Positions 2,944 to 48,473 of a stretch of DNA of 64,000 nt are shown piece after piece. The notes under the pieces were generated by a model that did not search any database, had not been told where the DNA came from, and worked only from the letters and a program-made list of their open reading frames with translations. The stretch is taken from positions 16,246 to 80,245 of the IMG/VR virus record IMGVR_UViG_3300042197_003333; one strand, 5' to 3'. Positions within the stretch are counted from its first letter, which is position 1. Each line of letters starts with the position of its first letter. A program made the translations under genes and the position numbers. The stretch comes from a virus.

Positions 2944-3040
2944 ATGAAACAACTTTTTAAAATAGACGAATCGGAAAAAAGACGAATTCTAGAAATGCAT
3001 GAAAATGCGACAAGAAGAAATTATTTGATGGAACAGGGAA
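2944..3040 (+). repeat. Direct repeat of a capsid-leader coding segment, copy 2
   Basis: Exact copy of 1102-1198. Divergence begins at the linker codons after the GGGAAC shared by both. Confidence 0.95.
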
Positions 3041-3630
3041 CACCCGCACCTAACACTCCACAACCGACATCTCCACCAGCAAGACAGGAAGTACAACCTT
3101 CGGGAAATGTTGTAAATGGTAAAACTTATAAAATTCAAAATATTACGGATGACAGTTCATTATACTTATTTACTAATTTTGGTTTACTAAATACTGAGAC
3201 AGCAGGAACCCCTTTTGGCCCAAGGAGTCATAGTAACTTAGGTTGGATGGCATCGACAGTAGGTTCTACAGTTGGGAATGAAGTTTATAAATTAGAACAA
3301 TCAAATAAATTTCATGAAAAAGACCTTGGAACTGAAAAATTTGAACAGTTAAAAAAACAAGCGGAAACCGATGTTATGAAAATTGTAAATGAGTTAGATA
3401 TTATTGCACAAAATTATACTTTACCTGAACTATGTAATAAAACAGAAAAACCTCTACCTCAAGGAGTAAGCTCAAAAGCTTTAGCTATTGCTCAACAAAG
3501 AGTAGGGCCCGATATGGGACGACTCAGTTTAAATTGGTGTGGTCAACAAAAAACAGGAACAAACGCTAAAAATAAAAGAGAACAAATTCAAAAAGATAGA
3601 GAGTTTGCACAACAAAGAGCAAAGGCTTAA
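2944..3630 (+). CDS. Putative capsid-targeted internal protein, copy 2
   Basis: A 228-residue protein. Residues 1-36 match those of the 1102 gene, including the LME/Q site at residue 30. A Pro-rich linker (about 37-55) then joins a different domain with no recognised family, rich in Gln and Lys at its C-terminus. The same leader on unrelated cargo supports a modular targeting peptide. It is followed by a terminator shared with the convergent secreted-protein gene. Confidence 0.85.
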   Translation: MKQLFKIDESEKRRILEMHENATRRNYLMEQGTPAPNTPQPTSPPARQEVQPSGNVVNGKTYKIQNITDDSSLYLFTNFGLLNTETAGTPFGPRSHSNLGWMASTVGSTVGNEVYKLEQSNKFHEKDLGTEKFEQLKKQAETDVMKIVNELDIIAQNYTLPELCNKTEKPLPQGVSSKALAIAQQRVGPDMGRLSLNWCGQQKTGTNAKNKREQIQKDREFAQQRAKA

Positions 3631-7525: not shown

Positions 7526-8187
7526 ACCTTAACATTTAAAAGGTCAAACCCATTACGTTCTTCAGTGTTCCAAACGTGATTAATGGTAACAGTATTATTA
7601 TCTAAATTAAATACAATATTACCTTGTGAGCCCTCATTTATTTCCCAACCACCGAAATGTGTTAAAGCGTTATAACATGAGTCTTTAATATCTGCCGAAG
7701 TATTTTCTGATTCACCGTTAACATCCATACTTCCTTCTATATAACCACTATCGCCACCACCAGTATAAGTGCAAATTATTTCACTAACTCCTTGTTCTAT
7801 ATAAGTTTCAAATGGAGCTAAATTTGTAATTTCATCTTCACTACTAACCTCCTCGTAACCCATAGTAGTATAAGAGCAAGAAACTCTAATTTCTTTTTCT
7901 TTTGCCAAAAATTCTATTTCTATTGTATAATAATCAACATCATTATCATGAAAATTACTCTCAAAATCATCTGAATCAACTTGTTCTAAAATTCTACGTA
8001 TAATATCATCAATACCTGGAAAAAGTTCAATTTTTCTATGTCCATCACCATGTAATCCTGAATTCCAAGTAATATCTTCATATTCGTAAGAATAATCAAT
8101 TGATGCGCTATCGGTGCCAAAACTTCTAATATAGATAAAAAATTTATTTAATAATTTTTTTTCGTTATCTGTTAATTGTAATTCCAT
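7522..8187 (-). CDS. Conserved phage protein, function unknown
   Basis: 221 residues, strongly acidic (many Asp/Glu), with a GGGDSGYIEGSMDVNG segment and a C-terminal HFGGWEINEGSQG motif. The layout resembles uncharacterised phage proteins with two similar beta-rich halves. No signal peptide or membrane segment. A TATTTATT box lies just before the start codon. It begins a leftward group but does not overlap its upstream neighbour. Confidence 0.7.
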   Translation of the reverse strand: MELQLTDNEKKLLNKFFIYIRSFGTDSASIDYSYEYEDITWNSGLHGDGHRKIELFPGIDDIIRRILEQVDSDDFESNFHDNDVDYYTIEIEFLAKEKEIRVSCSYTTMGYEEVSSEDEITNLAPFETYIEQGVSEIICTYTGGGDSGYIEGSMDVNGESENTSADIKDSCYNALTHFGGWEINEGSQGNIVFNLDNNTVTINHVWNTEERNGFDLLNVKV

Positions 8188-8198
8188 ATCAATAAATA

Positions 8199-8549
8199 TT
8201 AATCTTTTTTTATTTTTTTTGTTTTAATCATCCAAATCGGTCTTTCATTTTTTTCAATTGCTGTGAGCCACTCCTTTGCTGTTGGAACATATCCATTACA
8301 ATCTTCTCTTACATGTAATTCTCCCACGTATCTTGTGTAAACAACTTTCCCATCTGAATTTATAAAAGAAGCTCCAAACAATTTTTCAAGTTCAAATATT
8401 CCTTCGCTATGATGTCTAAAAAGTCTGTGATGTGAATAACATACCCATCCTTTTGTCTCGTCAAGCCAATTATGCATTGGAAGATAATCTTCAATTTTTC
8501 CACCCCAAGTTTTTACTGATGATTCTGCGTGTTCAATCGGATGCGCCAT
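8199..8549 (-). CDS. DUF6915-like protein
   Basis: 116 residues. The pattern MAHPIEHAESSVKTWGG, DYLPMHNWLDETK, HHRLFRHHSEGIF, RYVGELHVREDCNG and AKEWL matches, from memory, a widespread small family annotated DUF6915 in phages and bacteria. Many conserved His residues suggest a metal site. The start overlaps the stop of the upstream gene by 17 bases, so the two are probably translationally coupled. Confidence 0.8.
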   Translation of the reverse strand: MAHPIEHAESSVKTWGGKIEDYLPMHNWLDETKGWVCYSHHRLFRHHSEGIFELEKLFGASFINSDGKVVYTRYVGELHVREDCNGYVPTAKEWLTAIEKNERPIWMIKTKKIKKD

Positions 8550-15865: not shown

Positions 15866-16389
15866 ACTATATTCACAAACTTTTCTTTAAATTCTTCGAG
15901 TGTTATGCCTTCCTTATCTTTTGAACTAATTGTCAAATTAATTAGAGTTCCGGCCATATATTTAAAAATTATTTCAGACAATTCATTTATTGACGAATAT
16001 TTTATGCAAACCTCACTTTCTTTATTATATGGTTTGTCAACAAGATAGTTAACAATCGTTCCAGATTTTAATGTTAAAAATCCGTGAGCAAAATGATTTG
16101 GCACAATAAGTGTTTCGCCCTCATTTAATACAAATGAACTAAGTTTACCAAATGTTTCTTTTCTTAAATCAACAACAAAATCAACAATTTTTCCTGAAAC
16201 AACTGATACTTTTTTGGTTTGAGAAAACTCACCAAGTTGGGTATGCATTCCTCTAAATGTAAACAAATTATCATTAACACTTATGTTTGATTGAATCCAT
16301 TCTTTTGATAATGGAATTGGAGCAAATAGTCCTCTATTGTCTTTAAAGACAGGTGTTGTTAATAATTGTGGTTCTGAAATCATAAACAA
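15862..16389 (-). CDS. dTDP-4-dehydrorhamnose 3,5-epimerase-like protein (RmlC fold)
   Basis: 175 residues. The family pattern is visible: FKDNRGLFAPI, TFRGMHTQLGEFSQTK with the catalytic-region His, GKIVDFVVDLRKETFGK, and VPNHFAHGFLTL. RmlC epimerises a dTDP-sugar in rhamnose and related pathways. No other sugar-nucleotide gene is nearby, and the C-terminal region differs from the usual family end. The phage may remodel host surface sugars or use the fold structurally. Overlaps the convergent upstream gene by four bases. Confidence 0.88.
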   Translation of the reverse strand: MFMISEPQLLTTPVFKDNRGLFAPIPLSKEWIQSNISVNDNLFTFRGMHTQLGEFSQTKKVSVVSGKIVDFVVDLRKETFGKLSSFVLNEGETLIVPNHFAHGFLTLKSGTIVNYLVDKPYNKESEVCIKYSSINELSEIIFKYMAGTLINLTISSKDKEGITLEEFKEKFVNIV

Positions 16390-23475: not shown

Positions 23476-23759
23476 ATCTCCGTAGCTCAGTTAGGATAGA
23501 GCAACAACCTCAAAGGGGGCGTTTAATTAGAAATGATTAGATGGAACTTCTCGAATTCCGTGAAACCTTCCGAGTAATGTCGATGGTAATACCGAGCCAA
23601 ACCTCAAAAATGAGGAAGTGTGTAGAGACTAAGTGGGAAGCACCTTAACAAGTTAAGTTGAAGGTGATGATATAGTCCAGACCACAAACCTAAAGGGTAG
23701 TGAAAACTATAGTGGTATGTCTAAGTTGTGGGTCACAGGTTCGAATCCTGTCGGGGATA
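23476..23759 (+). tRNA. tRNA-Arg(UCU) interrupted by a group I intron
   Basis: Exons 23476-23510 and 23720-23759 give a 75-base tRNA. The acceptor stem ATCTCCG / CGGGGAT has one G-U pair. The D arm is GCTC/GAGC, the anticodon stem ACAAC / GTTGT, the 7-base anticodon loop C-T-TCT-A-A, the variable loop GGGTC, and the T arm ACAGG / CCTGT with loop TTCGAAT. Discriminator A; CCA is not encoded. UCU reads AGA, a codon used heavily in this AT-rich phage. The intron lies immediately 5' of the anticodon, after U33. Confidence 0.92.
23511..23719 (+). ncRNA. Group I intron in tRNA-Arg
   Basis: 209 bases without an internal gene. The 5' site follows U33, and the intron's early GGGGG can pair with CCU of the exon as P1 with a U-G pair at the splice site. 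The last intron base is G719. Core elements are visible: P5 hairpin CCTCA/TGAGG at 602-615, R segment AGAGACTA (621-631 region) whose GACTA pairs with TAGTC at 673-677 as P7, and the typical S segment GATGATATAGTCC. P8 is CACCTTAAC/GTTAAG...AAGGTG. Offsets are within 23 kb. The boundaries restore a perfect 7-base anticodon loop. Confidence 0.9.
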
Positions 23760-24287
23760 CACTGAGTTCATCTGCTCACCGTGAATTTCACGGTGGCAGT
23801 TTGAGCACAGTAGAATACACTTATCCAATTCATCTATCATAACTTCATTGAATGAATATCTTTTCAGTTGAGATAGACTGAAATCTTTTTCTTCAGGATT
23901 TAAGTGATGAAACTCTAATGCACCTATGTATTTATCATAACCACATTGTTGACATTTACCACCTTTATAGTCTACCATTTGTTTTTTCAATTTTCTTTGT
24001 CTTTCTACTGTTTGTAGCCCTGTGCATTTTTTACAGTAAACAGATGAATTATCCTTTCCCCTTCTACTATAAAATTCTGATATATTACAATTTTCTTTAC
24101 ATCTTGGGCAAAATCTACTTTCTCCATAATCTTTTTTTCCCATCACATTAAATGGTTTATTTGGAAATTCTACTTTGTGTTTCTTTGCCCAATATCTTAC
24201 TGTAGTTAGTCCTTTACCGGCCTCTTTACTTATTTGATTAAGGGACATCCCCTTACCAATCATTTCAATTAAATATTCTTTAGTCAT
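23733..24287 (-). CDS. HNH endonuclease ending inside the tRNA (antisense)
   Basis: 184 residues from MTKEYLIEMIGKG. That ATG is chosen because a TATTTATA box lies 14 bases upstream. An N-terminal HTH (SLNQISKEAGKGLTTVRYWAKKH) is followed by zinc-finger pairs CPRCKENC and CKKC. The HNH motif is CQQCGYD, ALEFHHLNPEEKDFSLS and CILLCSNCHREIHGE. The last nine codons, ending RQDSNL, are the antisense of the tRNA 3' exon. Being free-standing and next to the intron, it probably cuts the intron-less tRNA gene to spread the intron. Confidence 0.9.
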   Translation of the reverse strand: MTKEYLIEMIGKGMSLNQISKEAGKGLTTVRYWAKKHKVEFPNKPFNVMGKKDYGESRFCPRCKENCNISEFYSRRGKDNSSVYCKKCTGLQTVERQRKLKKQMVDYKGGKCQQCGYDKYIGALEFHHLNPEEKDFSLSQLKRYSFNEVMIDELDKCILLCSNCHREIHGEQMNSVYPRQDSNL

Positions 24288-24301
24288 ATGGATACTTTTT
24301 A

Positions 24302-24309
24302 TATAAATA
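24302..24309 (-). promoter_or_regulatory. TATTTATA box (minus strand)
   Basis: TATAAATA on the plus strand, 14 bases before the HNH start at 24287. It overlaps the longer upstream frame, which is therefore unlikely to be used. Confidence 0.6.
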
Positions 24310-24433
24310 TCCATTAAGTTATTTTTAGAAAAACTTTTATACTGTATTATGTTTAATCACAACACCAACCTTTGCTCAGAAATTTACACATTTTAGATTA
24401 TTTTGACAAGATATATAAACAAAAAAATTAATT

Positions 24434-28980: not shown

Positions 28981-29010
28981 AAAAAGGGGGATTATTCCCC
29001 CTTTGTTTTT
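28979..29010. terminator. Bidirectional intrinsic terminator
   Basis: AAAGGGGG-ATTATT-CCCCCTTT with flanking A- and T-rich runs, between the M20 gene and the convergent Clp fragment 3. Confidence 0.88.
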
Positions 29011-30245
29011 CTTGCCCTTTTTGTCTTCTTATATTCCGAGTAAAGCACTTTTTCATCTTCAATTCTCATAACGTAAAGTGTTTCTTCTTTAAGATTTTTT
29101 CTTAAAACTTCGTCGGAAATAAAATCTTCAATCTTTTCTTGAATTGCCCGTTTAAGCGGTCTTGCTCCATATACCTCATCAAACCCAACTTTTGAAATAA
29201 AGTCAATAACTGATTCATCAAAAGTAATATTAAGTTTCAACCCCTCAAGTCTTGACTGCAATTTGTTAATTTCAACTTTAACAATCTTTTTAACATCTTC
29301 ATCGTTTAATGTATTAAAAACAATTACCTCATCAATACGATTTATAAATTCGGGGGCAAAATGATTTTTTAATTCTTTATTCAACATTTGTTTTTTAACC
29401 TCTTGGTCAGCATATACGTTGTTTGTTTTGGAAAATCCAATCCCCGCTCCAAAATCTTGCATTTTTTTGACCCCAATATTTGATGTCATAATGATAAGAC
29501 AATTTTTAAAGTTAATTTTTCTTCCAAAACTATCTGTCATATAACCTTCATCCAAAAGTTGGAGGAGTGATGAAAAAATATCACGATGAGCCTTTTCAAC
29601 TTCATCAAAAAGAACAACCGAATATGGTTTTGTCTTAACCTGTTCTGTTAATTGACCCCCTTCTTCATATCCAACATAACCTGGAGGTGAACCAATCAAT
29701 CTTGAAACCGAGTGTTTTTCTTGAAATTCACTCATATCAACCCTAATTAAATTTTCTTCACTTCCAAATATCTGTTTTGCCAATTCTTTCGCTAAAAGAG
29801 TATTGTGAGATAAAATACCATTAGTATAATATCTTCTATTAGAACCTTCTTTTAATTCTAAATCAAACATAACTTCTTCGTACCCTAAATTAGTTATTGA
29901 TACAACTTCACATTCTTCTAATTTATCATCACCAAATACACATATTTTATCACCAACATTTAAATTCTTCACAAAAACTTCTTCCATATTGTCAATATAA
30001 AAAACAATATGATTATCGGCGCATTTGAGTTCTTTACCATCAGATAATTTAAGGTGATAAACCTCATAAGGTATTGTTTCATGTAATGCCTCAATATCAA
30101 CAAAACCGGTGTCGGTTAATATTTCATAATCTGATATTTTAGTTGTTTTAGTAAATTTTTTTAATGAATCTAATTCGTGTTTATCAAATAAAAAAACATT
30201 ATCTAATTTCTCAATTCGTTTTTGTATTTCTTCAATTCCATTCAT
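28992..30245 (-). CDS. Clp unfoldase fragment 3: C-intein 2 plus D2 AAA+ domain
   Basis: 417 residues. Residues 1-148 are a C-terminal split intein (blocks around YEILTDTGFVDI, NHIVF, and the end ILSHN with the catalytic penultimate His and Asn). Residues 149-417 resume the Clp D2 domain at TLLAKELAKQIFG, the end of the Walker A helix. Sensor and HSP100 signatures follow: SEFQEKHSVSRLIGSPPGYVG, Walker B VVLFDEVEKAH, and the GARPLKRAIQ C-domain. GIGF at about 271-274 lies where ClpC/ClpA carry the ClpP-docking tripeptide. Fragment 2 must be joined to it by trans-splicing, with Thr 149 as +1 nucleophile. Confidence 0.93.
   Translation of the reverse strand: MNGIEEIQKRIEKLDNVFLFDKHELDSLKKFTKTTKISDYEILTDTGFVDIEALHETIPYEVYHLKLSDGKELKCADNHIVFYIDNMEEVFVKNLNVGDKICVFGDDKLEECEVVSITNLGYEEVMFDLELKEGSNRRYYTNGILSHNTLLAKELAKQIFGSEENLIRVDMSEFQEKHSVSRLIGSPPGYVGYEEGGQLTEQVKTKPYSVVLFDEVEKAHRDIFSSLLQLLDEGYMTDSFGRKINFKNCLIIMTSNIGVKKMQDFGAGIGFSKTNNVYADQEVKKQMLNKELKNHFAPEFINRIDEVIVFNTLNDEDVKKIVKVEINKLQSRLEGLKLNITFDESVIDFISKVGFDEVYGARPLKRAIQEKIEDFISDEVLRKNLKEETLYVMRIEDEKVLYSEYKKTKRARKTKGE
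29802..30245 (-). other. C-terminal split intein 2 (148 aa)
   Basis: Residues 1-148 of Clp fragment 3. Ends RRYYTNGILSHN before Thr, the canonical intein blocks F and G. It pairs with the 31-residue N-intein at 31514-31609, whose block A (CVCEDTEIIVRNK) is missing from this half. Confidence 0.92.
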
Positions 30246-30246
30246 A

Positions 30247-31467
30247 TCATTTGTTTTTTAAAAATTTTATACATTTATTTATTATCTCTTGCTTATTCCC
30301 CCACCTATATTCAGAGTCCCATATTACTAAAACTTCAAAACCACAATTTTTGGCCATGCATAATTTTAATTTATCCTTATCCCAAATTTCTTGTGCAGTT
30401 ATGTTTTGTTTAAATGGATTTGGGTAATCTGTTGATTTATATTTTGTTGGGTTTGCGTGAAATGAATCTCCATGAAACTCAATTATTTTTTTATTAATAG
30501 TGTCAGTAAAATCGTATAACCAAACTCCGCCATTTTCTTTTTCTAACTTGAATTCTTTATTATGTGTTGCAAAATAAATTTTATCTTTATCAACAATATC
30601 ATATTTTTCTAAAAGTTTATAAAATAAATCTTGTGAAATTTTAGAAAACCCAATAACCATACTACCATTTTTTATCAAAGAATTTAACCATTTATCCTGT
30701 CTTTCATTAAATCTTTTTTTACCTTGTTCTTCACCATATTTTTTTATACATTTTTCTAATGAAAAAGTTGATTGGTGTTTAGATACTTTTTCTTTTGCTT
30801 CTTCTTCAGATAATCCAGTTTTTGTCCAATATTTAATATTAGAAGGTATTAATCTTTTTTGGAAATCTACTTGTTTAGCCGATTTTTTTTGATTTTTAGA
30901 AATAATTTTTTTAGCCTCAAGTTCTGTTTTACCTTTATTAATCCAAAATTCAACTTTTGAAGGAGTTAAACAAATTTTATTTATTTCTTCTTCAGTATAT
31001 CCTTTTTCTATTAGCATTTTTTTAGATTTACCATGATGAGTTTTAACACATTTAGAAGATTTTTGCTGTTGTTTTGAAATTTCTTTAGTCGCTAATTCTT
31101 TTGGGTAACCTTTATTTATCCAATACTCTTCACATAAACGATTTCTTTTTTTAATTTCATAATTTCTGTTTTCTAATTCTTTTAAAGCTTCTTTTTCATC
31201 CCAACCACGCTCAATAAAATATTCTATTTTGCCCCATTTTTTAGTTTTAAAGCTATAATTTTTTACCAACCACCCTCTCATTAATGAATATGAAATAGTA
31301 CCATCTTGTTCTTCTAATTTATTCATCAAAGATTGCATTTCTTTTTTTATTTTTTCATTATTGTAACGTATGTTCTTATCTAATTTTAAAACATAATTTT
31401 TAAATGTTTCTAAATCTGGAAAAATTTCGTTTATTTCTTTAGTTCCTTTGTTTGTTTTTATTTTCAT
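30247..31467 (-). CDS. Free-standing homing endonuclease between split intein 2 halves (EDxHD/Vsr-like)
   Basis: 406 residues. The C-terminal nuclease core contains WLYDFTDTINKKIIEFHGDSF-HANP, the PD-(D/E)xK variant seen in homing enzymes of fractured phage genes (EDxHD group). The N-terminal 270 residues hold about five repeats of the pattern YW-x3-G-x2-EEAxxxIS-x2-Q-x3-S, probably helical DNA-binding modules. It begins 46 bases after fragment 2 and ends one base before fragment 3. It probably targets intact Clp genes and copies the whole split-intein insertion into them. A TATTTATT box lies upstream. Confidence 0.88.
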   Translation of the reverse strand: MKIKTNKGTKEINEIFPDLETFKNYVLKLDKNIRYNNEKIKKEMQSLMNKLEEQDGTISYSLMRGWLVKNYSFKTKKWGKIEYFIERGWDEKEALKELENRNYEIKKRNRLCEEYWINKGYPKELATKEISKQQQKSSKCVKTHHGKSKKMLIEKGYTEEEINKICLTPSKVEFWINKGKTELEAKKIISKNQKKSAKQVDFQKRLIPSNIKYWTKTGLSEEEAKEKVSKHQSTFSLEKCIKKYGEEQGKKRFNERQDKWLNSLIKNGSMVIGFSKISQDLFYKLLEKYDIVDKDKIYFATHNKEFKLEKENGGVWLYDFTDTINKKIIEFHGDSFHANPTKYKSTDYPNPFKQNITAQEIWDKDKLKLCMAKNCGFEVLVIWDSEYRWGNKQEIINKCIKFLKNK

Positions 31468-31513
31468 AATATCTATTTTATAATAAATATCGTAAAGTTT
31501 AAAAAAGTTAGGA

Positions 31514-31609
31514 CTAATTGGTGTCGGTAATGATATTTTTTATTTTTATTGTCTTTATTTCACCAGTAAACTTGTTTCTAACTATAATTTCAGTATCTTC
31601 ACAAACACA
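31514..31609 (-). other. N-terminal split intein 2 (31 aa)
   Basis: Residues 473-503 of fragment 2: Cys 1, block A (CVCEDTEIIVRNKFTGEIKT) and a short tail before the stop. Far shorter than the about 100-residue N-halves of classical split inteins. Confidence 0.9.
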
Positions 31610-33025
31610 TTTTCCAACACCTGTTGAACCCAAAAATATGAATGAACCAATTGGTTTATTTGGGTCTTTAATACCCAACCTATTTCTTCTTATTGATTTT
31701 GATATTGTTGTGATTGCTTCAATTTGGCCTATAACTGATTTTGACAAATTATCTTCCATATTTATCAAATTTTCTGTATCATCAACTGATAATTTGGTAA
31801 CTGGAATTTTTGTCATTATTGAAACAACATCATAAACAAGTTCAATTGAAATGTCTCTTCTTTTTGTTAATAAATCTTGTTCAAATTTGGTTCTTTCAGC
31901 ATCTAATTGACTCAAAATCTTTTTTTCCCTGTCTCTTAATTGTGCTGCCATTTCATAATTTTGCCTTTTGACAACAAGTAATTTTTCTTCCCTAATTTTT
32001 TGTGATTCTTTCTTTAATTCCTCAATAATTTCGGGATTTTTAACATCAACTTGAGCTCTTGCTCCAACTTCGTCCAAAATATCAAAAGCCTTATCAGGAA
32101 ATTCTCTATCTGTTATATATCTGTCGGCCAAATCAACACATGCGTTTAAAATTTCATCTGTAAAATTAACCTTGTGATGAATTTCGTATTTTTCTTTCAA
32201 ATTTTGAAGAATTTGAAGAGTTTCTTCTTTTGTTGATGGTGAAACAATTACTTTTTGGAACCTCCTGTCAAGAGCCCCGTCTTTTTCAATATTTTTCTTA
32301 AATTCATCAAGTGTTGTTGCTCCAATGCACTGAATTTCACCTCTTGATAATGCGGGTTTTAGAATATTTGATGCGTCAAGTGAACCAGATGCGTTTCCAG
32401 CCCCAACAAGGGTATGAATTTCGTCAATAAAAAGAACTACATTTGGATTTACCGTAATTTCGTCAATTATAACCTTTAATCTTTCTTCAAATTGACCCCT
32501 ATATTTTGTTCCCGCAACAATTGAATTTAAATCAAGTGATAAAATTCTTTTGTCAACCAAATTTCTTGGGCAATCTCCTTGAAATATTTTCATTGCAAGA
32601 CCCTCAACTATCGCCGTCTTTCCGCAATTATGGGAAACAACTCCATTTGATATATATTTTCTTTCATCGTCTAAAACTTCTAAATCATAGGTATTATTAA
32701 TTCCTATTTCAGTATATTCTATAACATCAACCAATTCATTATTTTCAGTCCAAACAAATTCACCTTCTGTAATGTTACCTAAACTTAACCAACAAGAATT
32801 ATTTTCAAAAACAACATTTGGATTTAAAGAATTTTTAGAAACTTCAACCAAATGTTCGTCAGAACCTGATAATTCTAAACCATTTGATAGTTTAATTCTA
32901 ATACAATTTTTATTGTTTTTTTTGTATAAATTACCAATTAATTTATATCCTGATGGTGTTTTAATTTTGTAAGTCCCACCTTTTTTTTCAACAAGGTCAA
33001 AAAAATCTTCTATTTTTATTTTCAT
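31514..33025 (-). CDS. Clp unfoldase fragment 2: C-intein 1, rest of D1, middle domain, start of D2, N-intein 2
   Basis: 503 residues. Residues 1-133: C-intein 1 (ends VVSHN). 134-472: Clp sequence resuming at CGKTAIVEGLAM (Walker A of D1), with Walker B VVLFIDEIHTLVGAG, a ClpC-like middle domain containing a UVR-like YEMAAQLRDREKKI, and the start of D2 up to FLGSTGVGK. 473-503: N-intein 2, starting CVCEDTEIIV. Both insertion points are in P-loops. It must splice at both ends to give active enzyme. The ATG overlaps the stop of the endonuclease gene (ATGA). Confidence 0.93.
   Translation of the reverse strand: MKIKIEDFFDLVEKKGGTYKIKTPSGYKLIGNLYKKNNKNCIRIKLSNGLELSGSDEHLVEVSKNSLNPNVVFENNSCWLSLGNITEGEFVWTENNELVDVIEYTEIGINNTYDLEVLDDERKYISNGVVSHNCGKTAIVEGLAMKIFQGDCPRNLVDKRILSLDLNSIVAGTKYRGQFEERLKVIIDEITVNPNVVLFIDEIHTLVGAGNASGSLDASNILKPALSRGEIQCIGATTLDEFKKNIEKDGALDRRFQKVIVSPSTKEETLQILQNLKEKYEIHHKVNFTDEILNACVDLADRYITDREFPDKAFDILDEVGARAQVDVKNPEIIEELKKESQKIREEKLLVVKRQNYEMAAQLRDREKKILSQLDAERTKFEQDLLTKRRDISIELVYDVVSIMTKIPVTKLSVDDTENLINMEDNLSKSVIGQIEAITTISKSIRRNRLGIKDPNKPIGSFIFLGSTGVGKCVCEDTEIIVRNKFTGEIKTIKIKNIITDTN
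32627..33025 (-). other. C-terminal split intein 1 (133 aa)
   Basis: Residues 1-133 of fragment 2. MKIKIEDFFDLVEKKGGTYK continues the fold where the 24-residue N-half stops; block B is LSGSDEHLVEV and the end is YISNGVVSHN before Cys +1. Confidence 0.92.
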
Positions 33026-34194
33026 AATACATTTAATATTTTATCATATAGTTTAGTAAAATCTGTCTCATAAATCAATTTAATTTTGTTTTCATTACAA
33101 AATAAAATTTTTTTATTCATTTTATCGTAATATTTAGATTGTTTTTCGTCTAATTTGTTAAAATTTTTTCCGTCTAAAATACCAAAATATTCAATATACA
33201 CATCGTAATCAGGTAGATAAAAATCACATTTAAAATGCGAATTCGGGTACCCAATCTCATATGAATAATTAATTTTTTTAAATTCAAATAAAAGACAAAG
33301 TTTATATTCTTTAACGCTTTTAAATCTAATCCCATTATGATATACAGGGGTACCATATAAGCCACACTTTAACTCATAAGGAAATGATGAAAAAAAAGTT
33401 TTTTTAATTGTGTCTTTATTAGTATTGTACCTATTTGAAATGATTGAGCTATTAATGTAAGGGATAATATCTGAAATAGTTTTAACGTCTATTTTTGTTA
33501 AAACACACAAAACAAATTTTGAAATAGAATCACAATCAATACATTCTGTTATAATTTTTTTTGTACTATCTAAAAAAGATGTTCTTACTATTAAATCTTT
33601 TATTGGTACTTTATCAAAAGAATATGAGTTCTTTTTTTTATTAATTTCATTAATTTTATTATTTGTGTGAAGACTATTAATCCATTTTTTTTGTCTTTTT
33701 TGGAAAATTTCAACTCCTTCCTCTTCACCATATTTTTGAATACAAATTTTTTTGCTAAAAGTTTTTTGACTTTCAGAAATTAAATTTTTTGCCTCTTCAG
33801 AACTAAATCCTTTTTTTACCCAATATTCAATTCTTTTAGGGGATTTGTCATAAAATTTTTCAGGATTTATTTTCTTTTTGTCTGAAAGAATTTTAGAATT
33901 TTTTTTCTGTTGCTCACTAATAAATTGAGTTATTTCTGATTTTTCCCATCCCATCATAAATAAAAAGTCTTCATTATATACACTTTCAGGGTAATTAACT
34001 ATTTGTCTATACCACTTCTTAATTTCCTTAAAATTAATTTGAGTCGTATTTTTAATTTGATTATTAACTTTATCAATACAAGAGTCGGGTATTTTTTTAA
34101 AGAACTTAAAAAAATTATTATTTAAAATAAAATTTTCTAAATCAATATGATTTGATATAGTTAATAATTTTTTTCTTTTAAAGAAAACATTCAT
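33022..34194 (-). CDS. Free-standing homing endonuclease between split intein 1 halves
   Basis: 390 residues. The C-terminal part has a Vsr/PD-(D/E)xK-like core: VKEYKLCLLFEFKK, FKCDFYLPDYDVYIEYFGI. The N-terminal part carries two copies of the same YW-x3-G-x3-EEAxxxIS-x2-Q repeat as the other endonuclease, and the matching KYGEEEGVEIFQKRQKKWINSL segment is shared too. The two enzymes are therefore related in their DNA-binding part but differ in the nuclease core. It has its own TATTTATA box (34226-34233) directly behind fragment 1 and overlaps fragment 2 by ATGA. Confidence 0.82.
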   Translation of the reverse strand: MNVFFKRKKLLTISNHIDLENFILNNNFFKFFKKIPDSCIDKVNNQIKNTTQINFKEIKKWYRQIVNYPESVYNEDFLFMMGWEKSEITQFISEQQKKNSKILSDKKKINPEKFYDKSPKRIEYWVKKGFSSEEAKNLISESQKTFSKKICIQKYGEEEGVEIFQKRQKKWINSLHTNNKINEINKKKNSYSFDKVPIKDLIVRTSFLDSTKKIITECIDCDSISKFVLCVLTKIDVKTISDIIPYINSSIISNRYNTNKDTIKKTFFSSFPYELKCGLYGTPVYHNGIRFKSVKEYKLCLLFEFKKINYSYEIGYPNSHFKCDFYLPDYDVYIEYFGILDGKNFNKLDEKQSKYYDKMNKKILFCNENKIKLIYETDFTKLYDKILNVL

Positions 34195-41535: not shown

Positions 41536-44500
41536 TTGGACATTGGGGTTGGTTTTATTGAAACTCCTCCCCCAACCCCATCAATTACACCGACTAACAC
41601 CCCGACAATATCATTAACACCATCAAACACCCCTACTCCGTCAATTACGCCATCAAATACTCCTACCCCATCAATTACGCCTACAAACACTCCAACTAAT
41701 AGCGTTACGCCAACTAATACTCCAACAAATACACAGACCCCAACTAATACTAAAACACCAACACAAACAAGAACTCAAACACCAACAAATACACAGACCC
41801 CAACTAATACTAAAACACCAACACAAACAAGAACTCAAACACCAACAAATACACAGACCCCATCAATTACGCCGACTAGTACTAAAACACCAACACCTAC
41901 AAAGACCCAAACACCCACTAATACCGTAACTCCTTCGGAAACACCGACCAATACTCCAACAAGGACATTAACAAAAACTCCAACACAGACCCCGTCAATT
42001 ACCCCAACTAATACTCAAACTCCAACAAATACTAAAACTCCAACTCCAACAAGAACTGAAACTCCGACTAATACCCCAACAAACACACAAACTCCAACAA
42101 ATACTAAAACTCCAACGAATACTAAAACTCCAACCCCGACAAATACAACCACGCCATCAGAAACTCCAACTAACACTCCAACAAGAACATCCACAAAAAC
42201 ACCAACGCAGACTCCATCAATTACACCAACAAATACAACAACACCATCAGAAACTCCAACTAATACTCCAACAAGAACATCCACAAAAACCCCAACCCCT
42301 ACTTCAACTATAACTCCAACAAATACTAAAACTCCAACGAATACTAAAACTCCAACACAAACAAATACAAACACCCCATCAGAAACCCCAACCAATACCC
42401 CAACAAGAACATTAACAAAAACTCCAACAAATACCCCAACACAATCACCGCAATTTTCTCAATCACCGACTCAAACTCCAACAAAAACTCCAACTAATAC
42501 TGCCACAAATACCCCGACTAGTACCGTTACTCCAAGTAACACCACCACAAATACCCCAACTAATACTGCAACAAAAACCCCTACCACAACATCAACTCCT
42601 GCGGCTAGTGCTTCACCAACTTCAACTCAAACTCCAACAAATACCCCAACATCGTCTGTAACTCCAACAAATACAAAAACTCCTACTAATACACAAACTC
42701 CTACTAACACACAAACTCCAACTAGAACTTCAACTCCTACTAATACACAAACTCCTACTCAAACATCTACTAATACTCAAACTCCTACTAATACACAAAC
42801 TCCAACTAAAACTTCAACTCCAAGTCCAACTCAACCATCGTGTTTTTGTTATCAATTCCAAATTACTACTAATGGTACAACTGTTCAATCAACAAATTGT
42901 AATGGTAATATAACTCGGAGCGCATATTCAATTGGTTATTACTCAATTTGTTCTAGAGTTACACCGACATTTATTGGTGGTTCGTATTCAAATTTAATTC
43001 AAGCTGCAAGTTGTTTAAATGGAGGTGACGCCGCTTGTATCGCAGTGAGCCAATCACCGACTCCGACTCCGACAATTACCCCAACTAAAACACTTACCCC
43101 TACTCAAACTCCTACTAATACTCAAACTCCTACTAACACAATTACCCCTACCAACACCCAAACTCCAACAAATACTCAAACACCTACTAATACTCAAACT
43201 CCAACTCCTACTTCAACTCCTTTGGCAAGTCCTTCCCCAACCTCAACAGTTACTCCAACTAATAGTGTTACCCCAACTAATACTCCAACTAATACTCAAA
43301 CTCCAACACCAAGTATTACACCGACTAATACTCAAACTCCAACTAATACTCAAACCTCAACAAACACACCAACTAATACTGTAACACCAACAAACACGCC
43401 TACTAATACTCAAACCCCAACAAATACACAAACCCCAACAATTACGCCGACTAATACTATAACTCCAAGTATTACTCCTACTAATACTCAAACCCCAACA
43501 ATTACACCAACAGTAAGTCCAAGTAGTCCAGTCTTATTAGAATTTTTAAGTTTTCCGGCGTCAAGTGGGATTTCATTTTCATTTGGTAACTCAACACAGG
43601 TCAGACAAACAACTGTTGAACTAACAGACACTAATTCTGCCAGTACTATTTATAATTTTAATAATACAGGCGATACGACATTTGTGTCGTTAGGTAGTTC
43701 GGTGGCTAATTTTACCTATACACCCACTACCTCAAATGGAGAGCTATTACTCTTTAAAAATCCTGTAGGATTTATACATTCTTTTAAAACAAGTAGTGTT
43801 AGTACGTCTTTATTTATACAAGGTTTTTCGGCTATAACAAAAAATCAAAATTACGCACTTAAACAGAGTTATTTTGGAAAAACCCTTCTTACTATAAGTG
43901 GCTTCTCAGGCTCATTAAATTTACTTGATTATAATGGTTTTGAAGGCGCAAGGCTTTACATTTTTAATTATATTGCAACAGGAACAAATGCAAGTAATGC
44001 TGAATTATTAGATAATTCTTGGTTACCCAAAAATTATACGGCAAGTACTACCGCTCAACAATTTTATTTTAACGTTAGCGCGACTACAAGAGCCAGTGTA
44101 AATTTTAATTTGACTGGAATGACAAATTTATCGTATCTAGTAAATGACGATGTTAACCACGAAATAAATGGGGTAACTTCAATAACATTGGCGTTACCTC
44201 AAAATTTTGGTAGAACTACTACTTTTGGCCCGGTAAGTGCTGTTGACCCTGCAGCTGGAATTTTTATACGAACAACTAGTTCTAGTCCTAACCCTTTAAC
44301 CGCCGTCACAATAACAAACGGGCCGTCAGTTGTGTCCAATTTTAGTAAATTTCAATTAAGACTTATACCTAGTTTGGTTTCTCTAACAACAAGTTACCAA
44401 AGAAATTTGGCAATATATTCTTTGGAAAGAATGTCATCTTTAACTGCAGTAACCGACGATTTTAGTGTATATACTGGTTTAACTTATTTTAACATTACTA

Positions 44501-45516
44501 CTTGTCCTAATTTAAGTAATTTCACTGCGAATACTTTATCTGGATTATCTAATTTTCAACACTATTTGTTAAACGATTGTAAACAATTTAATTGGCCTAT
44601 ACTTCCCACTTTTAATCAAAACCCTTACAAATTACAATTAACAAATTGTCTTCTTACTTCACCTCCCCCATCATCGCCATTTTATTTTAAAACAAATCTT
44701 AAAGACATATATTTAGGAAATTTTGTTAGTACAAGCACAAATGAAATTGCTATACATTCAAATAAAAATGTAATTAATTTATGGGATTATAATCTTACGA
44801 GTTTGACAGGTTTGACTACGTTTAGTCTAAATCATTGTGAATTGACAGGAATTACAAATTCAAATATATTCCCGACACAAGTTAAGACCATTAATTTTAT
44901 ATCTAATCGTTTAAGTGGTTTATCTTTTTCACATTTTAGTTCGGTAACTGGATTCTCAATGAATATTTCAAATGGTAGTAGTGCAAATGATAGGAACACC
45001 ATTTCAGCGTTCACTGATTGTAATTCTGCGTCGGGACTAACAGCATTAACTTATACTAATGGTACTTTCCAACCAACTGGAGGATTTCAGCCATTTTTTC
45101 CTACGGGATTAACTTCATTAAATATTAGTAGTAGAGTAAATGGTAGAAATGCTACTCCATATGTAAATATTGTATTTTCATCAAACACTGTATATTCAGG
45201 ATTTAATAACTCTTTAAAAACTTTAAATATCAGTAATTTTTCTTTATCTGCCGCTAGTATGAATTACATAATTTGTTGGCTCGCAACGGCTCAAACGTAT
45301 AGCACATCAGTTACTGGAGGCACATTAAATGGGGGTAATGAATTTATATCATCAACTACTAATCCTACTGGTAACGCCAAAATAGACACAACTTCAGGTG
45401 GATTAAATGGAATTGTCTGTAGAGATATTTTAACAGGTACTGTAGGTAATACAATAACAGTTAACACTATTCCTTACCCAGGTAAAGGTTGGACTGTAAC
45501 AGGTACTTTTGCTTAA
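41536..45516 (+). CDS. Giant Thr/Pro-repeat protein with LRR-like C-terminus, probable fibre
   Basis: 1326 residues if the TTG at 41536 is used; the frame extends upstream through a TGA to the ATG at 41425. Residues 10-435: low-complexity [15 protein letters not shown]-type repeats. 436-505: a compact domain with CFCYQFQI and several Cys. 506-660: a second repeat tract. 661-1326: a beta-rich region of leucine-rich-like repeats ([39 protein letters not shown]), like BspA surface proteins. Repeats of this kind often form extended stalks and are frequently O-glycosylated in Bacteroidota. It lies between terL and portal, so it may be a head-attached fibre or decoration. Confidence 0.8.
41563..43520 (+). 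repeat. Thr/Pro-coding tandem repeat tract
   Basis: About 2 kb of degenerate repeats with unit ACTCCAACAAATACTCAA and variants, interrupted by a unique domain at 42841-43048. Some longer units are near-identical, e.g. 41749-41848 holds two copies of a roughly 57-base block. Prone to slippage and to long antisense shadow frames. Confidence 0.92.
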
Positions 45517-45575: not shown

Positions 45576-48473
45576 ATGATGGAAAATAATAAAATGACAG
45601 TATGGCAAAGATTGTCCCAAGCTTTTGGTCCAAATTCATTGCTCGGACAAGATTATCCAACATACAAATACGATAAAAAAGAACTTTTAAGGACAACATC
45701 CAAAAAAGAATATGACCTTGAAAAACTTCAAGCTCAACAAAATTACTATCTTGCAAACCAATGGTCAAAGATTGAACACAATCTTTATACCCAAGCAGTG
45801 TATTACGAACCAACAAGATTATCATCTTTTTATGACCTAGAAAGTATGGAGTTTACTCCAGAAATATCTGCAGCTTTAGATATTTACGCCGAAGAATCAA
45901 CGACAGTAAACGAAGATGGTTATATGCTTCAAATTTATTCTGAATCAAAAAGAATAAAATCAATTTTGGCTGACTTATTTAACAACGCTCTTGATATTAA
46001 CACAAACCTTCCGATGTGGACAAGAAACACATGCAAGTATGGTGATAATTTCGTTTATTTAAAACTTGACCCCGAAAAAGGTATAGTTGGATGTATGCAA
46101 CTTCCAATTATTGAAATTGAAAGATTGGAAGCGGGAATGGGAGGAAAATCTGCCGACCCTGAAACAAACCCAACAAAAAAACATACAAGATTTAAATGGA
46201 AACAAAAGGACTTGGAGTTCAATACTTGGGAAGTTGCTCACTTTAGATTACTTGGTGATGATAGGAGACTACCGTATGGAACTTGCCTAAAATTTGATAC
46301 TAAAATTGATACTGAATATGGAGTTAAAGAAATTAAAGATATTGTAAAAGGGGATAAAGTTTATTCATTTGATTTAAATTCAGAAGAAAAAGTATTGTCT
46401 GATGTTTTAGATACTGTAAATTCAGGAGTTAAAATTTGTTACCAAATACATACTAAACATAATTTTATTGAAGCTTCAGAAGAACACAAAATATTAATTT
46501 TTGATGGAAATAAATTTACATATAAAAATACATTAGAATTAAATATTGGTGATTTATTAGTTATTGACAATTCAAAAAATAAAACTAAAAAAACTTTGAT
46601 TAATAAAACACAACCTGAAGATAATAAAAACGGATGGTTTAATAGTGTTGATTTAATACCTGAATATATAAATGAAGAATTTGCTAGATTTTTTGGATTT
46701 ATGTTAGGTGATGGCTGGATTAGTAATAATGGTGTTTATTTTGCATTATCTGAATATGATGATTTAAATGATTTTTATATTGGGATATTAAACAAATATT
46801 CCAAAAATCCAGTAAAAATTATTGAGGTTGATGGCAAAGAAACACAATGCATGGTGTGGTCAAAGTGTTTAAAGACAATTTTAGAAAGAATGGGTTTTAA
46901 TGGTAAGGCCTCAACTAAAAGATTACCTAGTTGGATATACAGCTCGGATGTAGAAATACAAAAGGCTCTTTTAGAGGGACTAATAGACTCAGACGGATGG
47001 ATAACACAAGATAAATGGTCAACACATCTTAATATTGAATTATGTAATGAAAATTTAGTAAAAGACGTTAAAACTTTATGCCAAAAGATTGGATATAAAT
47101 CAGGTTCAATTAGAAAAAGAGAACCAAGAAAAAATGTGGTAATTGAAGGTAGAAAAATTAAATCGGTAAAACCAAGTTATTCTTTGACTTTTTATGATAC
47201 CTTATTAACTCAAACGAAAAAATATGACAACCAATTTAGAAAAAATGAAAATTACATTTTAGAACCAATTACAAAAATTATTGACATTGGAGAACATGAA
47301 ACTTTTGATATATACGTTGAAAATCAAAATCATAATTTTTACGCTAATGGAGTCGTTGTACATAATTCAATGTTAGAAAAAGCTCGTCGTATTTGGAAAC
47401 AATTATTATTATCCGAAGACGCAATGTTAATTTATAGAACATCAAGAGCTCCTGAAAGAAGAGTATTTAAAGTATTTGTTGGAAATATGGATGACGCAGA
47501 TGTTGAACCTTATATCCAAAGATTTGCAAATAAATTTAAACGAGACCAAGTTGTTGACTCTAAATCAGGAAATGTTGATATGAGGTTTAATCAAATGGCG
47601 GTTGACCAAGATTATTTTGTTCCCGTTAGAGACCCAGCTCAAGCTTCCCCAATTGAAACATTAGCAGGTGCCACAAACCTATCGGAAATCGCGGATATTG
47701 AATATATTCAAAAGAAATTGCTCACCGCAATTCGTGTTCCAAAAGCGTTTTTAGGTTTTGAAGAAACCGTAGGAGATGGAAAAAATTTGGCATTACAAGA
47801 TATAAGATTTGCAAGAACAATCAATCGTATTCAAAAAACGATGGTTCAAGAACTTAATAAAATTGCAATTATTCACCTTTTTATTTTAGGTTTTGAAGAA
47901 GAAATTGGAAACTTTACATTATCCTTAACAAATCCATCAACTCAAGCGGATTTAATGAGAATTGATGTATGGAAAGAAAAAGTTTTATTATTTAAAGATA
48001 TGGTTGCAGACCCTGGAAGTGGAATTGCCCCTGTATCACAATCTTGGGCAAAGAAACACATTTTGGGATTTTCTGATGATGAAATTAAACTTGATTTGCA
48101 ACAACAACGAATTGAACGAGCTGTTGGTGAAGAGTTAAAGAAAACTGCTGAAGTTATTACTCATTCAGGAATATTTGACAATATTGATAGATTATATGGC
48201 AAAAAAGAAAGTGAGCCAGCTGGAACACCAACTGAAGGTGGAGCCCCACCACCGGGAGGAGATATGGGAGCGGAATCATCACTCCCCGCACCTCCACCAC
48301 CAGGTCCTGAGCCAGGCGGCGAAGCGGGAGTAACCCCCGAACAATATGAAAGAGACATGAATATTCTTGTTGAGAGTAATCTTATAGAGGACGATGAGAT
48401 GATTGATTTATCAAAAGCAAAAAAATCTTTGTCTGAAATTGAAGATAAATTAAAATCATTACTAAAAGATTGA
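45576..48473 (+). CDS. Portal protein (T4 gp20-like) with in-frame LAGLIDADG intein
   Basis: 965 residues before splicing, 604 after. N-extein 1-236 holds the gp20-like region (LDIYAEESTTVNEDGYMLQIYS, WTRNTCKYGDNFVYLKLD) and ends at LPYGT. The intein is 237-597. C-extein 598-965 resumes SMLEKARRIWKQ and includes SRAPERRVF and AIRVPKAFLGFEE. A Pro/Gly-rich acidic tail (about 890-925) precedes the C-terminus. The dodecameric portal is the vertex through which DNA is packaged and ejected. Must splice for assembly. Confidence 0.95.
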   Translation: MMENNKMTVWQRLSQAFGPNSLLGQDYPTYKYDKKELLRTTSKKEYDLEKLQAQQNYYLANQWSKIEHNLYTQAVYYEPTRLSSFYDLESMEFTPEISAALDIYAEESTTVNEDGYMLQIYSESKRIKSILADLFNNALDINTNLPMWTRNTCKYGDNFVYLKLDPEKGIVGCMQLPIIEIERLEAGMGGKSADPETNPTKKHTRFKWKQKDLEFNTWEVAHFRLLGDDRRLPYGTCLKFDTKIDTEYGVKEIKDIVKGDKVYSFDLNSEEKVLSDVLDTVNSGVKICYQIHTKHNFIEASEEHKILIFDGNKFTYKNTLELNIGDLLVIDNSKNKTKKTLINKTQPEDNKNGWFNSVDLIPEYINEEFARFFGFMLGDGWISNNGVYFALSEYDDLNDFYIGILNKYSKNPVKIIEVDGKETQCMVWSKCLKTILERMGFNGKASTKRLPSWIYSSDVEIQKALLEGLIDSDGWITQDKWSTHLNIELCNENLVKDVKTLCQKIGYKSGSIRKREPRKNVVIEGRKIKSVKPSYSLTFYDTLLTQTKKYDNQFRKNENYILEPITKIIDIGEHETFDIYVENQNHNFYANGVVVHNSMLEKARRIWKQLLLSEDAMLIYRTSRAPERRVFKVFVGNMDDADVEPYIQRFANKFKRDQVVDSKSGNVDMRFNQMAVDQDYFVPVRDPAQASPIETLAGATNLSEIADIEYIQKKLLTAIRVPKAFLGFEETVGDGKNLALQDIRFARTINRIQKTMVQELNKIAIIHLFILGFEEEIGNFTLSLTNPSTQADLMRIDVWKEKVLLFKDMVADPGSGIAPVSQSWAKKHILGFSDDEIKLDLQQQRIERAVGEELKKTAEVITHSGIFDNIDRLYGKKESEPAGTPTEGGAPPPGGDMGAESSLPAPPPPGPEPGGEAGVTPEQYERDMNILVESNLIEDDEMIDLSKAKKSLSEIEDKLKSLLKD
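46284..47366 (+). other. LAGLIDADG intein in portal gene (361 aa)
   Basis: Starts at Cys (CLKFDTKIDTEYG) and ends VVVHN before Ser +1. Two LAGLIDADG motifs are present: FFGFMLGDGW (about residue 374 of the precursor) and LLEGLIDSDGW (about 469). Both acidic residues are intact, so the homing enzyme is probably active. Insertion lies in the conserved LPYG / SMLEKARR site of the portal. Confidence 0.95.

Follow-up and report, generated by a model that had tools for sequence, protein, structure and literature searches.

A phage-encoded tRNA-Arg(UCU) gene is split directly 5' of its anticodon by a group I intron in a 64,000-nucleotide stretch of viral DNA (the window; positions 16,246 to 80,245 of IMG/VR record IMGVR_UViG_3300042197_003333). 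This arrangement had been proposed from the sequence alone (the original prediction) and is borne out by a match to the group I family RF00028, by reconstruction of the tRNA with ARAGORN and by the phage genes of the record. The split gene is confirmed as a real feature, correctly read from the sequence. The favored interpretation, held with good confidence, is that a T4-like phage carries a tRNA-Arg(UCU) with an ORF-less group I intron at the junction of U33 and the anticodon, which would be spliced out and would have spread by recombination, with an adjoining HNH endonuclease plausibly helping. The features of the locus are listed in Table 1.

Table 1. Features of the split tRNA-Arg(UCU) locus (window positions)
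Feature	Position	Strand	Description	Basis
tRNA-Arg(UCU) 5' exon	23476..23510	+	from acceptor 5' strand through U33	ARAGORN on spliced and unspliced sequence, junction analysis
Group I intron	23511..23719	+	209 nt, no ORF, last base G	RF00028, covariation in 27 introns
P1	23508..23519	+	CCU 23508-23510 with guide GGG 23517-23519, U.G at splice site	pair list
P10 guide AGG	23514..23516	+	pairs with 3' exon UCU 23720-23722	pair list
P2 hairpin	23520..23543	+	GAAA loop	pair list, covariation
P3	23547..23640	+	23547-23552 with 23635-23640	pair list, covariation
P4	23557..23595	+	23557-23562 with 23590-23595, C.C mismatch at 23559/23593	
P5 and extension	23565..23587	+		pair list, covariation
P6	23596..23621	+	23596-23597/23620-23621, P6a hairpin 23602-23615	
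P7 (guanosine-binding helix)	23627..23677	+	GACTA 23627-23631 with TAGTC 23673-23677	
P8 hairpin	23641..23666	+		pair list, covariation
P9 region	23681..23716	+	23681-23685/23712-23716, hairpin 23698-23709	
tRNA-Arg(UCU) 3' exon	23720..23759	+	anticodon TCT to discriminator base	ARAGORN, sequence
Stand-alone HNH-type endonuclease gene	23733..24314	-	convergent with tRNA, ends inside 3' exon	ORF

The tRNA-Arg(UCU) gene

Joining the two exons yields a 75-nt tRNA that ARAGORN identifies as tRNA-Arg(tct) with the loop CTTCTAA, in agreement with the expectation that removal of the intron restores a seven-base UCU loop and paired stems. The acceptor (7 bp, including one T.G wobble), D, anticodon and T stems are all paired, and no CCA is encoded in the 3' exon. 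The gene and its 209-nt intron are recovered exactly when ARAGORN is allowed introns, while the split gene is missed by ARAGORN run without introns and by the Rfam tRNA model. Since AGA accounts for 74% of the arginine codons in 32 genes of the window, a tRNA-Arg(UCU) would be useful to the phage. The original prediction regarded a second, intact tRNA-Arg(UCU) as the sign of a relic; none was detected in the record, which at 80 kb is itself a fragment.

The group I intron

The RF00028 match (23501-23701) covers all 253 model positions with 74.1 bits (E 5.9e-17; gathering score 50) and is the sole match to this family in the 80,245-base record; the covariance-model check that had been proposed is therefore positive at full model length. 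No ORF of at least 50 codons starts within the intron. The junctions have the hallmarks of the group: U23510 ends the 5' exon, G23719 ends the intron, and both P1 and P10 are present. Together, P1 (CCU/GGG) and P10 (UCU/AGG) are predicted to fix both splice sites. Within the core, P3, P6, P7 and P8 are paired and covary in the family, and P4 is paired apart from one C.C mismatch. A bulge-helix-bulge intron, of the type spliced by proteins, is ruled out by the group I core.

Covariation was assessed for 65 named pairs in 27 aligned introns (that of the window and 26 relatives), with shuffles and slid partners as controls. Pairing is found in 83% of cells, and the 284 two-sided changes compare with 102 +/- 8 after shuffling (0 of 500 shuffles as high). 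The covariation score is 0.430, against 0.158 +/- 0.009 after shuffling and 0.07-0.16 with partners slid. Two-sided changes occur in P2, P3, P4, P7, P8, P9 and P10, including six of the six pairs of P3 (95.7% of cells paired) and all three of P10 (84%). The GACTA/TAGTC pairing, on which, together with a further sequence segment, the group I assignment had first been based, is located in P7 and covaries in relatives, the last pair being AU, UA or GC. The low covariation score of P1 reflects the shifting position of the exon end among the aligned sequences. The plain MFE folding energy of the intron is not significant (z -1.33); it is the covariance model, together with the covariation among relatives, that supports the structure.

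Insertion site and distribution among phages

The intron is inserted at 33/34, between U33 and the anticodon, and its guide AGGGGG spans CCU|UCU. Related phage introns reside at 34/35 (CCUU|CUAA), where the guide has GAG, which pairs with CUU. Judging from these pairings, a single guide position tells the two sites apart, and the change between GAG and GGG may have moved the intron. The site and guide of the window recur in four further viral contigs: L048 and L075, which are the 33/34 Arg(UCU) cases besides the window among the matches listed from the scan below, and L137 and L138, with two further introns of this type. In a quick tree of 95 introns, those of the window and L048 pair with 94% support; deep support is weak, and the tree leaves unsettled whether the 33/34 Arg introns form a single clade.

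Introns in phage tRNAs had been thought rare, a view that does not hold for viral metagenome contigs. A pattern scan of IMG/VR returned at least 119 stretches, with at least 88 intron-split tRNAs that have a rebuildable anticodon loop and a U|...G junction. Among the matches listed, which include near-copies, Leu(UAA) 34/35 is by far the commonest, followed by Arg(UCU) 34/35, Met(CAU) 33/34 and Asn(GUU) 35/36. RF00028 was searched in 14 other contigs: all 13 expected intron carriers match (11 above the cut-off), and the contig with an intronless tRNA-Arg (G007) has no match. The introns of L048, L146 and L138 were missed by cmscan, probably through its filters, and were found by a genome search with the same family. 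For L048, L075 and L055, the contig also has Gp23.

Further cases are noted in named phages, including: (i) the cultured Agrobacterium phage Atu_ph07, with an unannotated intron in tRNA-Leu(UAA) (48.9 bits, E 1.8e-11), (ii) LR756501, with an unannotated split tRNA-Leu(UAA), and (iii) Microcoleus phage My-WqHQDG, with an annotated split tRNA-Arg(CCU). Similarly to the window, these have phage tRNA genes interrupted by a group I intron, but the isoacceptors and positions differ. The word "intron" is absent from the Atu_ph07 paper, and no description of phage tRNA group I introns was found in the open-access PMC literature.

Other loci were encountered during these searches. The pattern ATAGTCC...GTCTAA...GGTTCGA gave five matches in viral contigs (L002-L006), none of which is group I by Rfam; four are in tRNA arrays and one is in a G+C-rich stretch. 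In the arrays (L002-L005), a 3' tRNA half is found about 130 nt from the matching acceptor 5' strand. In a 484-kb phage (L010, LR756508; 1336-1604 and 2134-2358), a tRNA-Lys(UUU) is predicted to have an intron at 34/35, with a HEARO RNA (RF02033, 144 bits) nearby. Matches to abiF RNA (RF03085) in L055 (959-995, minus strand) and L060 (11857-11893, minus strand) are about 30 nt upstream of the tRNA-Arg(UCU) intron match and probably overlap or abut the 5' part of the tRNA.

Comparison with known introns

Group I introns are well known in bacterial tRNAs. Those of Azoarcus tRNA-Ile and Anabaena tRNA-Leu (subgroup IC3, about 200-250 nt, ORF-less) resemble the intron of the window in size, lack of an ORF and tRNA location, and differ in their bacterial host. 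A sample of the cyanobacterial phylum has sites at Leu U|AA, Arg CCU|A, Asn GU|U and Met U|CAU, in line with the statement that anticodon-loop introns of tRNA-Arg and tRNA-Leu occur in bacteria; a single cyanobacterial genome used as a yardstick gave no match. The cyanobacterial Leu(UAA), fMet(CAU), Arg(CCU) and Asn(GUU) introns are likewise in the anticodon loop, preceded by U, terminated by G and matched by RF00028, and the Met introns share the 33/34 position. By contrast with the window, the host is bacterial and the isoacceptors are others, with no Arg(UCU) among those fetched. No true 33/34 Arg(UCU) intron was detected in 84,980 bacterial and archaeal genomes, where the pattern gave two chance matches without tRNAs, a negative result limited by the strictness of the pattern.

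The phage group I introns known by 2014 are all in protein genes (PMC3984707). The introns of T4 td, nrdB and nrdD, SPO1 and Twort are phage-borne like that of the window, but they interrupt protein genes. The 33/34 position is already known from the cyanobacterial Met introns, while no precedent that unites tRNA-Arg(UCU), a phage host and a flanking HNH gene was found in the open-access literature.

The HNH-type endonuclease gene and possible intron mobility

The HNH protein encoded beside the split tRNA has no Pfam match itself; its relative in L143 matches PF01844 (E 1.4e-4). Relatives that are 59-60% identical adjoin tRNA-Arg(UCU) in L048 and L143. In contig G001, the relative at 60% identity is about 10 nt from a split tRNA-Arg, the intron of which is 92% identical to that of the window and its closest match. 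The DNA similarity between the window and G001 is confined to the tRNA-intron and HNH gene, without the flanks, and their Gp23 proteins have no similarity by tblastn. By contrast, the gene order of the 272-kb contig G002 (L075) follows that of the window from the terminase to beyond the tRNA, and a tRNA-Arg(UCU) in the corresponding position is also split by an intron, yet this intron is only 82% identical; BLAST with the window tRNA found no further tRNA-Arg(UCU) in G002. The intron of the window is thus closer to its counterpart in G001 than to the one in collinear G002, although the flanks and Gp23 of G001 are unlike those of the window, which suggests that the tRNA-intron-HNH unit was transferred horizontally.

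The intron-tRNA loci were searched with a small HMM of the three HNH proteins, with random placements as control. Of 11 further HNH ORFs, six are at most 100 nt away from the split tRNA, compared to 0.75 expected, a count reached in 0 of 20,000 random placements; these six include two near-copies. The HNH genes are enriched beside split tRNAs of several kinds. This above-chance adjacency fits collaborative homing, as described for a cyanophage psbA intron and a stand-alone endonuclease (PMC3984707). Like the psbA system, the window has the collaborative-homing arrangement, an ORF-less group I intron with an adjoining stand-alone endonuclease gene; the psbA intron is in a protein gene, whereas that of the window is in a tRNA.

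In a competing explanation, which falls somewhat short of an even chance, HNH gene and intron have nothing to do with each other: the former is a selfish stand-alone endonuclease that came to lie at the end of a tRNA, and the latter passes vertically from phage to phage. Consistent with this explanation, the HNH relative at 59% identity, in G007, overlaps a tRNA-Arg(UCU) that has no intron and so represents an empty site, and no HNH of the window type was detected near the G002 intron at the collinear site. Thus, the link between HNH gene and intron is not strict. Separate histories are, however, disfavored by the restriction of window-G001 similarity to the tRNA-intron and HNH gene and by the enrichment of HNH genes at several kinds of split tRNA. 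Under the favored interpretation, the endonuclease-less intron would spread among phage tRNA genes by recombination, and the HNH gene at the 3' end of the tRNA plausibly helps this spread by collaborative homing; homing of the intron with such help is inferred from gene arrangement. A broader proposal is more doubtful, although possible: a large, little-described population of phage tRNA group I introns that moves from one phage lineage to another, in which stand-alone HNH enzymes encoded beside the tRNA would aid this movement by cutting the intronless tRNA genes of competitors and a GAG to GGG guide change would shift the site from 34/35 to 33/34.

Two other elements reside near tRNA-Arg genes. 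A second HNH gene of the window (PF14279/PF01844; 22273-22800, minus strand), 0.7 kb upstream of the split tRNA, differs in type from the flanking one. In L144, a GOLLD RNA (RF02032, 318 bits; 7810-8221, minus strand) is about 2.4 kb from the intronless tRNA-Arg/HNH pair.

Predicted splicing and the P4 mismatch

In the proposed mechanism, guanosine bound in P7 would attack after U33 at the site held by P1 (CCU/GGG), and the freed U33, positioned by P10 (UCU/AGG), would then attack 3' of the terminal G. The two transesterifications would produce an intact tRNA-Arg that reads AGA. The intron has the 209 bases given for a minimal ribozyme in the original prediction, which overlooked that the core is not flawless, so that this copy is a presumptive rather than an established ribozyme. 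The C.C mismatch in P4 makes the window the sole unpaired copy among the 27 introns; the same pair is GC in 24 of the others and AU in two, and it is paired in the nearest relative, L048. Doubt about splicing of the window copy arises mainly from this mismatch, which may be a real, weakening change or a consensus error of the metagenome.

It is unlikely, albeit conceivable, that the window copy is a relic, group I by descent with a P4 too damaged to splice, leaving the tRNA-Arg dead and the phage to use a host tRNA. The argument for a relic is that the C.C falls in a core helix, at a position that is paired in 26 of 26 other aligned introns. Against it, the remaining core helices are intact, as are P1, P10 and the exons of the tRNA, the RF00028 score of the window tops those of all sampled phage introns, and the single change could also stem from a consensus error. 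An intron that is spliced remains the preferred reading, with splicing and its efficiency in the presence of the C.C mismatch predicted from the fold.

Phage origin and other features of the window

Terminase_6N, Portal_T4 and Gp23 genes, all T4-like, are found within 31 kb on the record, and the terminase and Gp23 are 72% and 70% identical to those of G002; the record is, by its gene content, a T4-like phage fragment. A bacterial contig, or a host tRNA at a prophage edge with an ordinary bacterial tRNA intron, is very improbable: the Arg(CCU) cases of the viral contigs L021, L052 and L091 may be host genes at prophage edges with bacterial-type introns, but bacterial contamination of the window is ruled out by its terminase, portal and capsid genes and by the gene order shared with the 272-kb phage contig, and the strict 33/34 Arg(UCU) motif gave only chance matches in prokaryotes.

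Several other elements are apparent in the window. Intein halves seem to interrupt a ClpB-like gene (28992-34194, minus strand) at two Walker A motifs; endonuclease-like stand-alone ORFs (30247-31467 and 33022-34194) between these halves resemble the 'fractured gene' split-intein arrangement. The T4-like portal gene (45576-48473, plus strand) has an in-frame intein with a LAGLIDADG-like domain. A phage tmRNA (26617-27001, minus strand; RF00023, 83.1 bits) has the unusual predicted tag GETFAKLQTIGLIRTADVTVA. Two ORFs (1102-1818 and 2944-3630, plus strand) share the identical N-terminal stretch MKQLFKIDESEKRRILEMHENATRRNYLMEQGTPAP and then diverge, and a protein of 1326 residues (41536-45516, plus strand) has a long repeat region rich in Thr, Pro and Asn.

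Implications for phage tRNA genes

The abundance of tRNA introns in viral contigs, together with their frequent flanking by HNH genes, is of more interest than the single copy of the window. According to a 2014 review, phage group I introns avoid tRNA genes (PMC3984707), a view contradicted by many viral contigs, several of which have capsid or terminase genes. As neither the Rfam tRNA model nor ARAGORN with introns disallowed sees the split gene of the window, the tRNA repertoires of phages are probably undercounted. Such introns provide natural material for the study of how phage tRNA introns move and of whether a tRNA that depends on a ribozyme is made in time during infection, a question of timing that the cultured phage Atu_ph07 makes directly testable.
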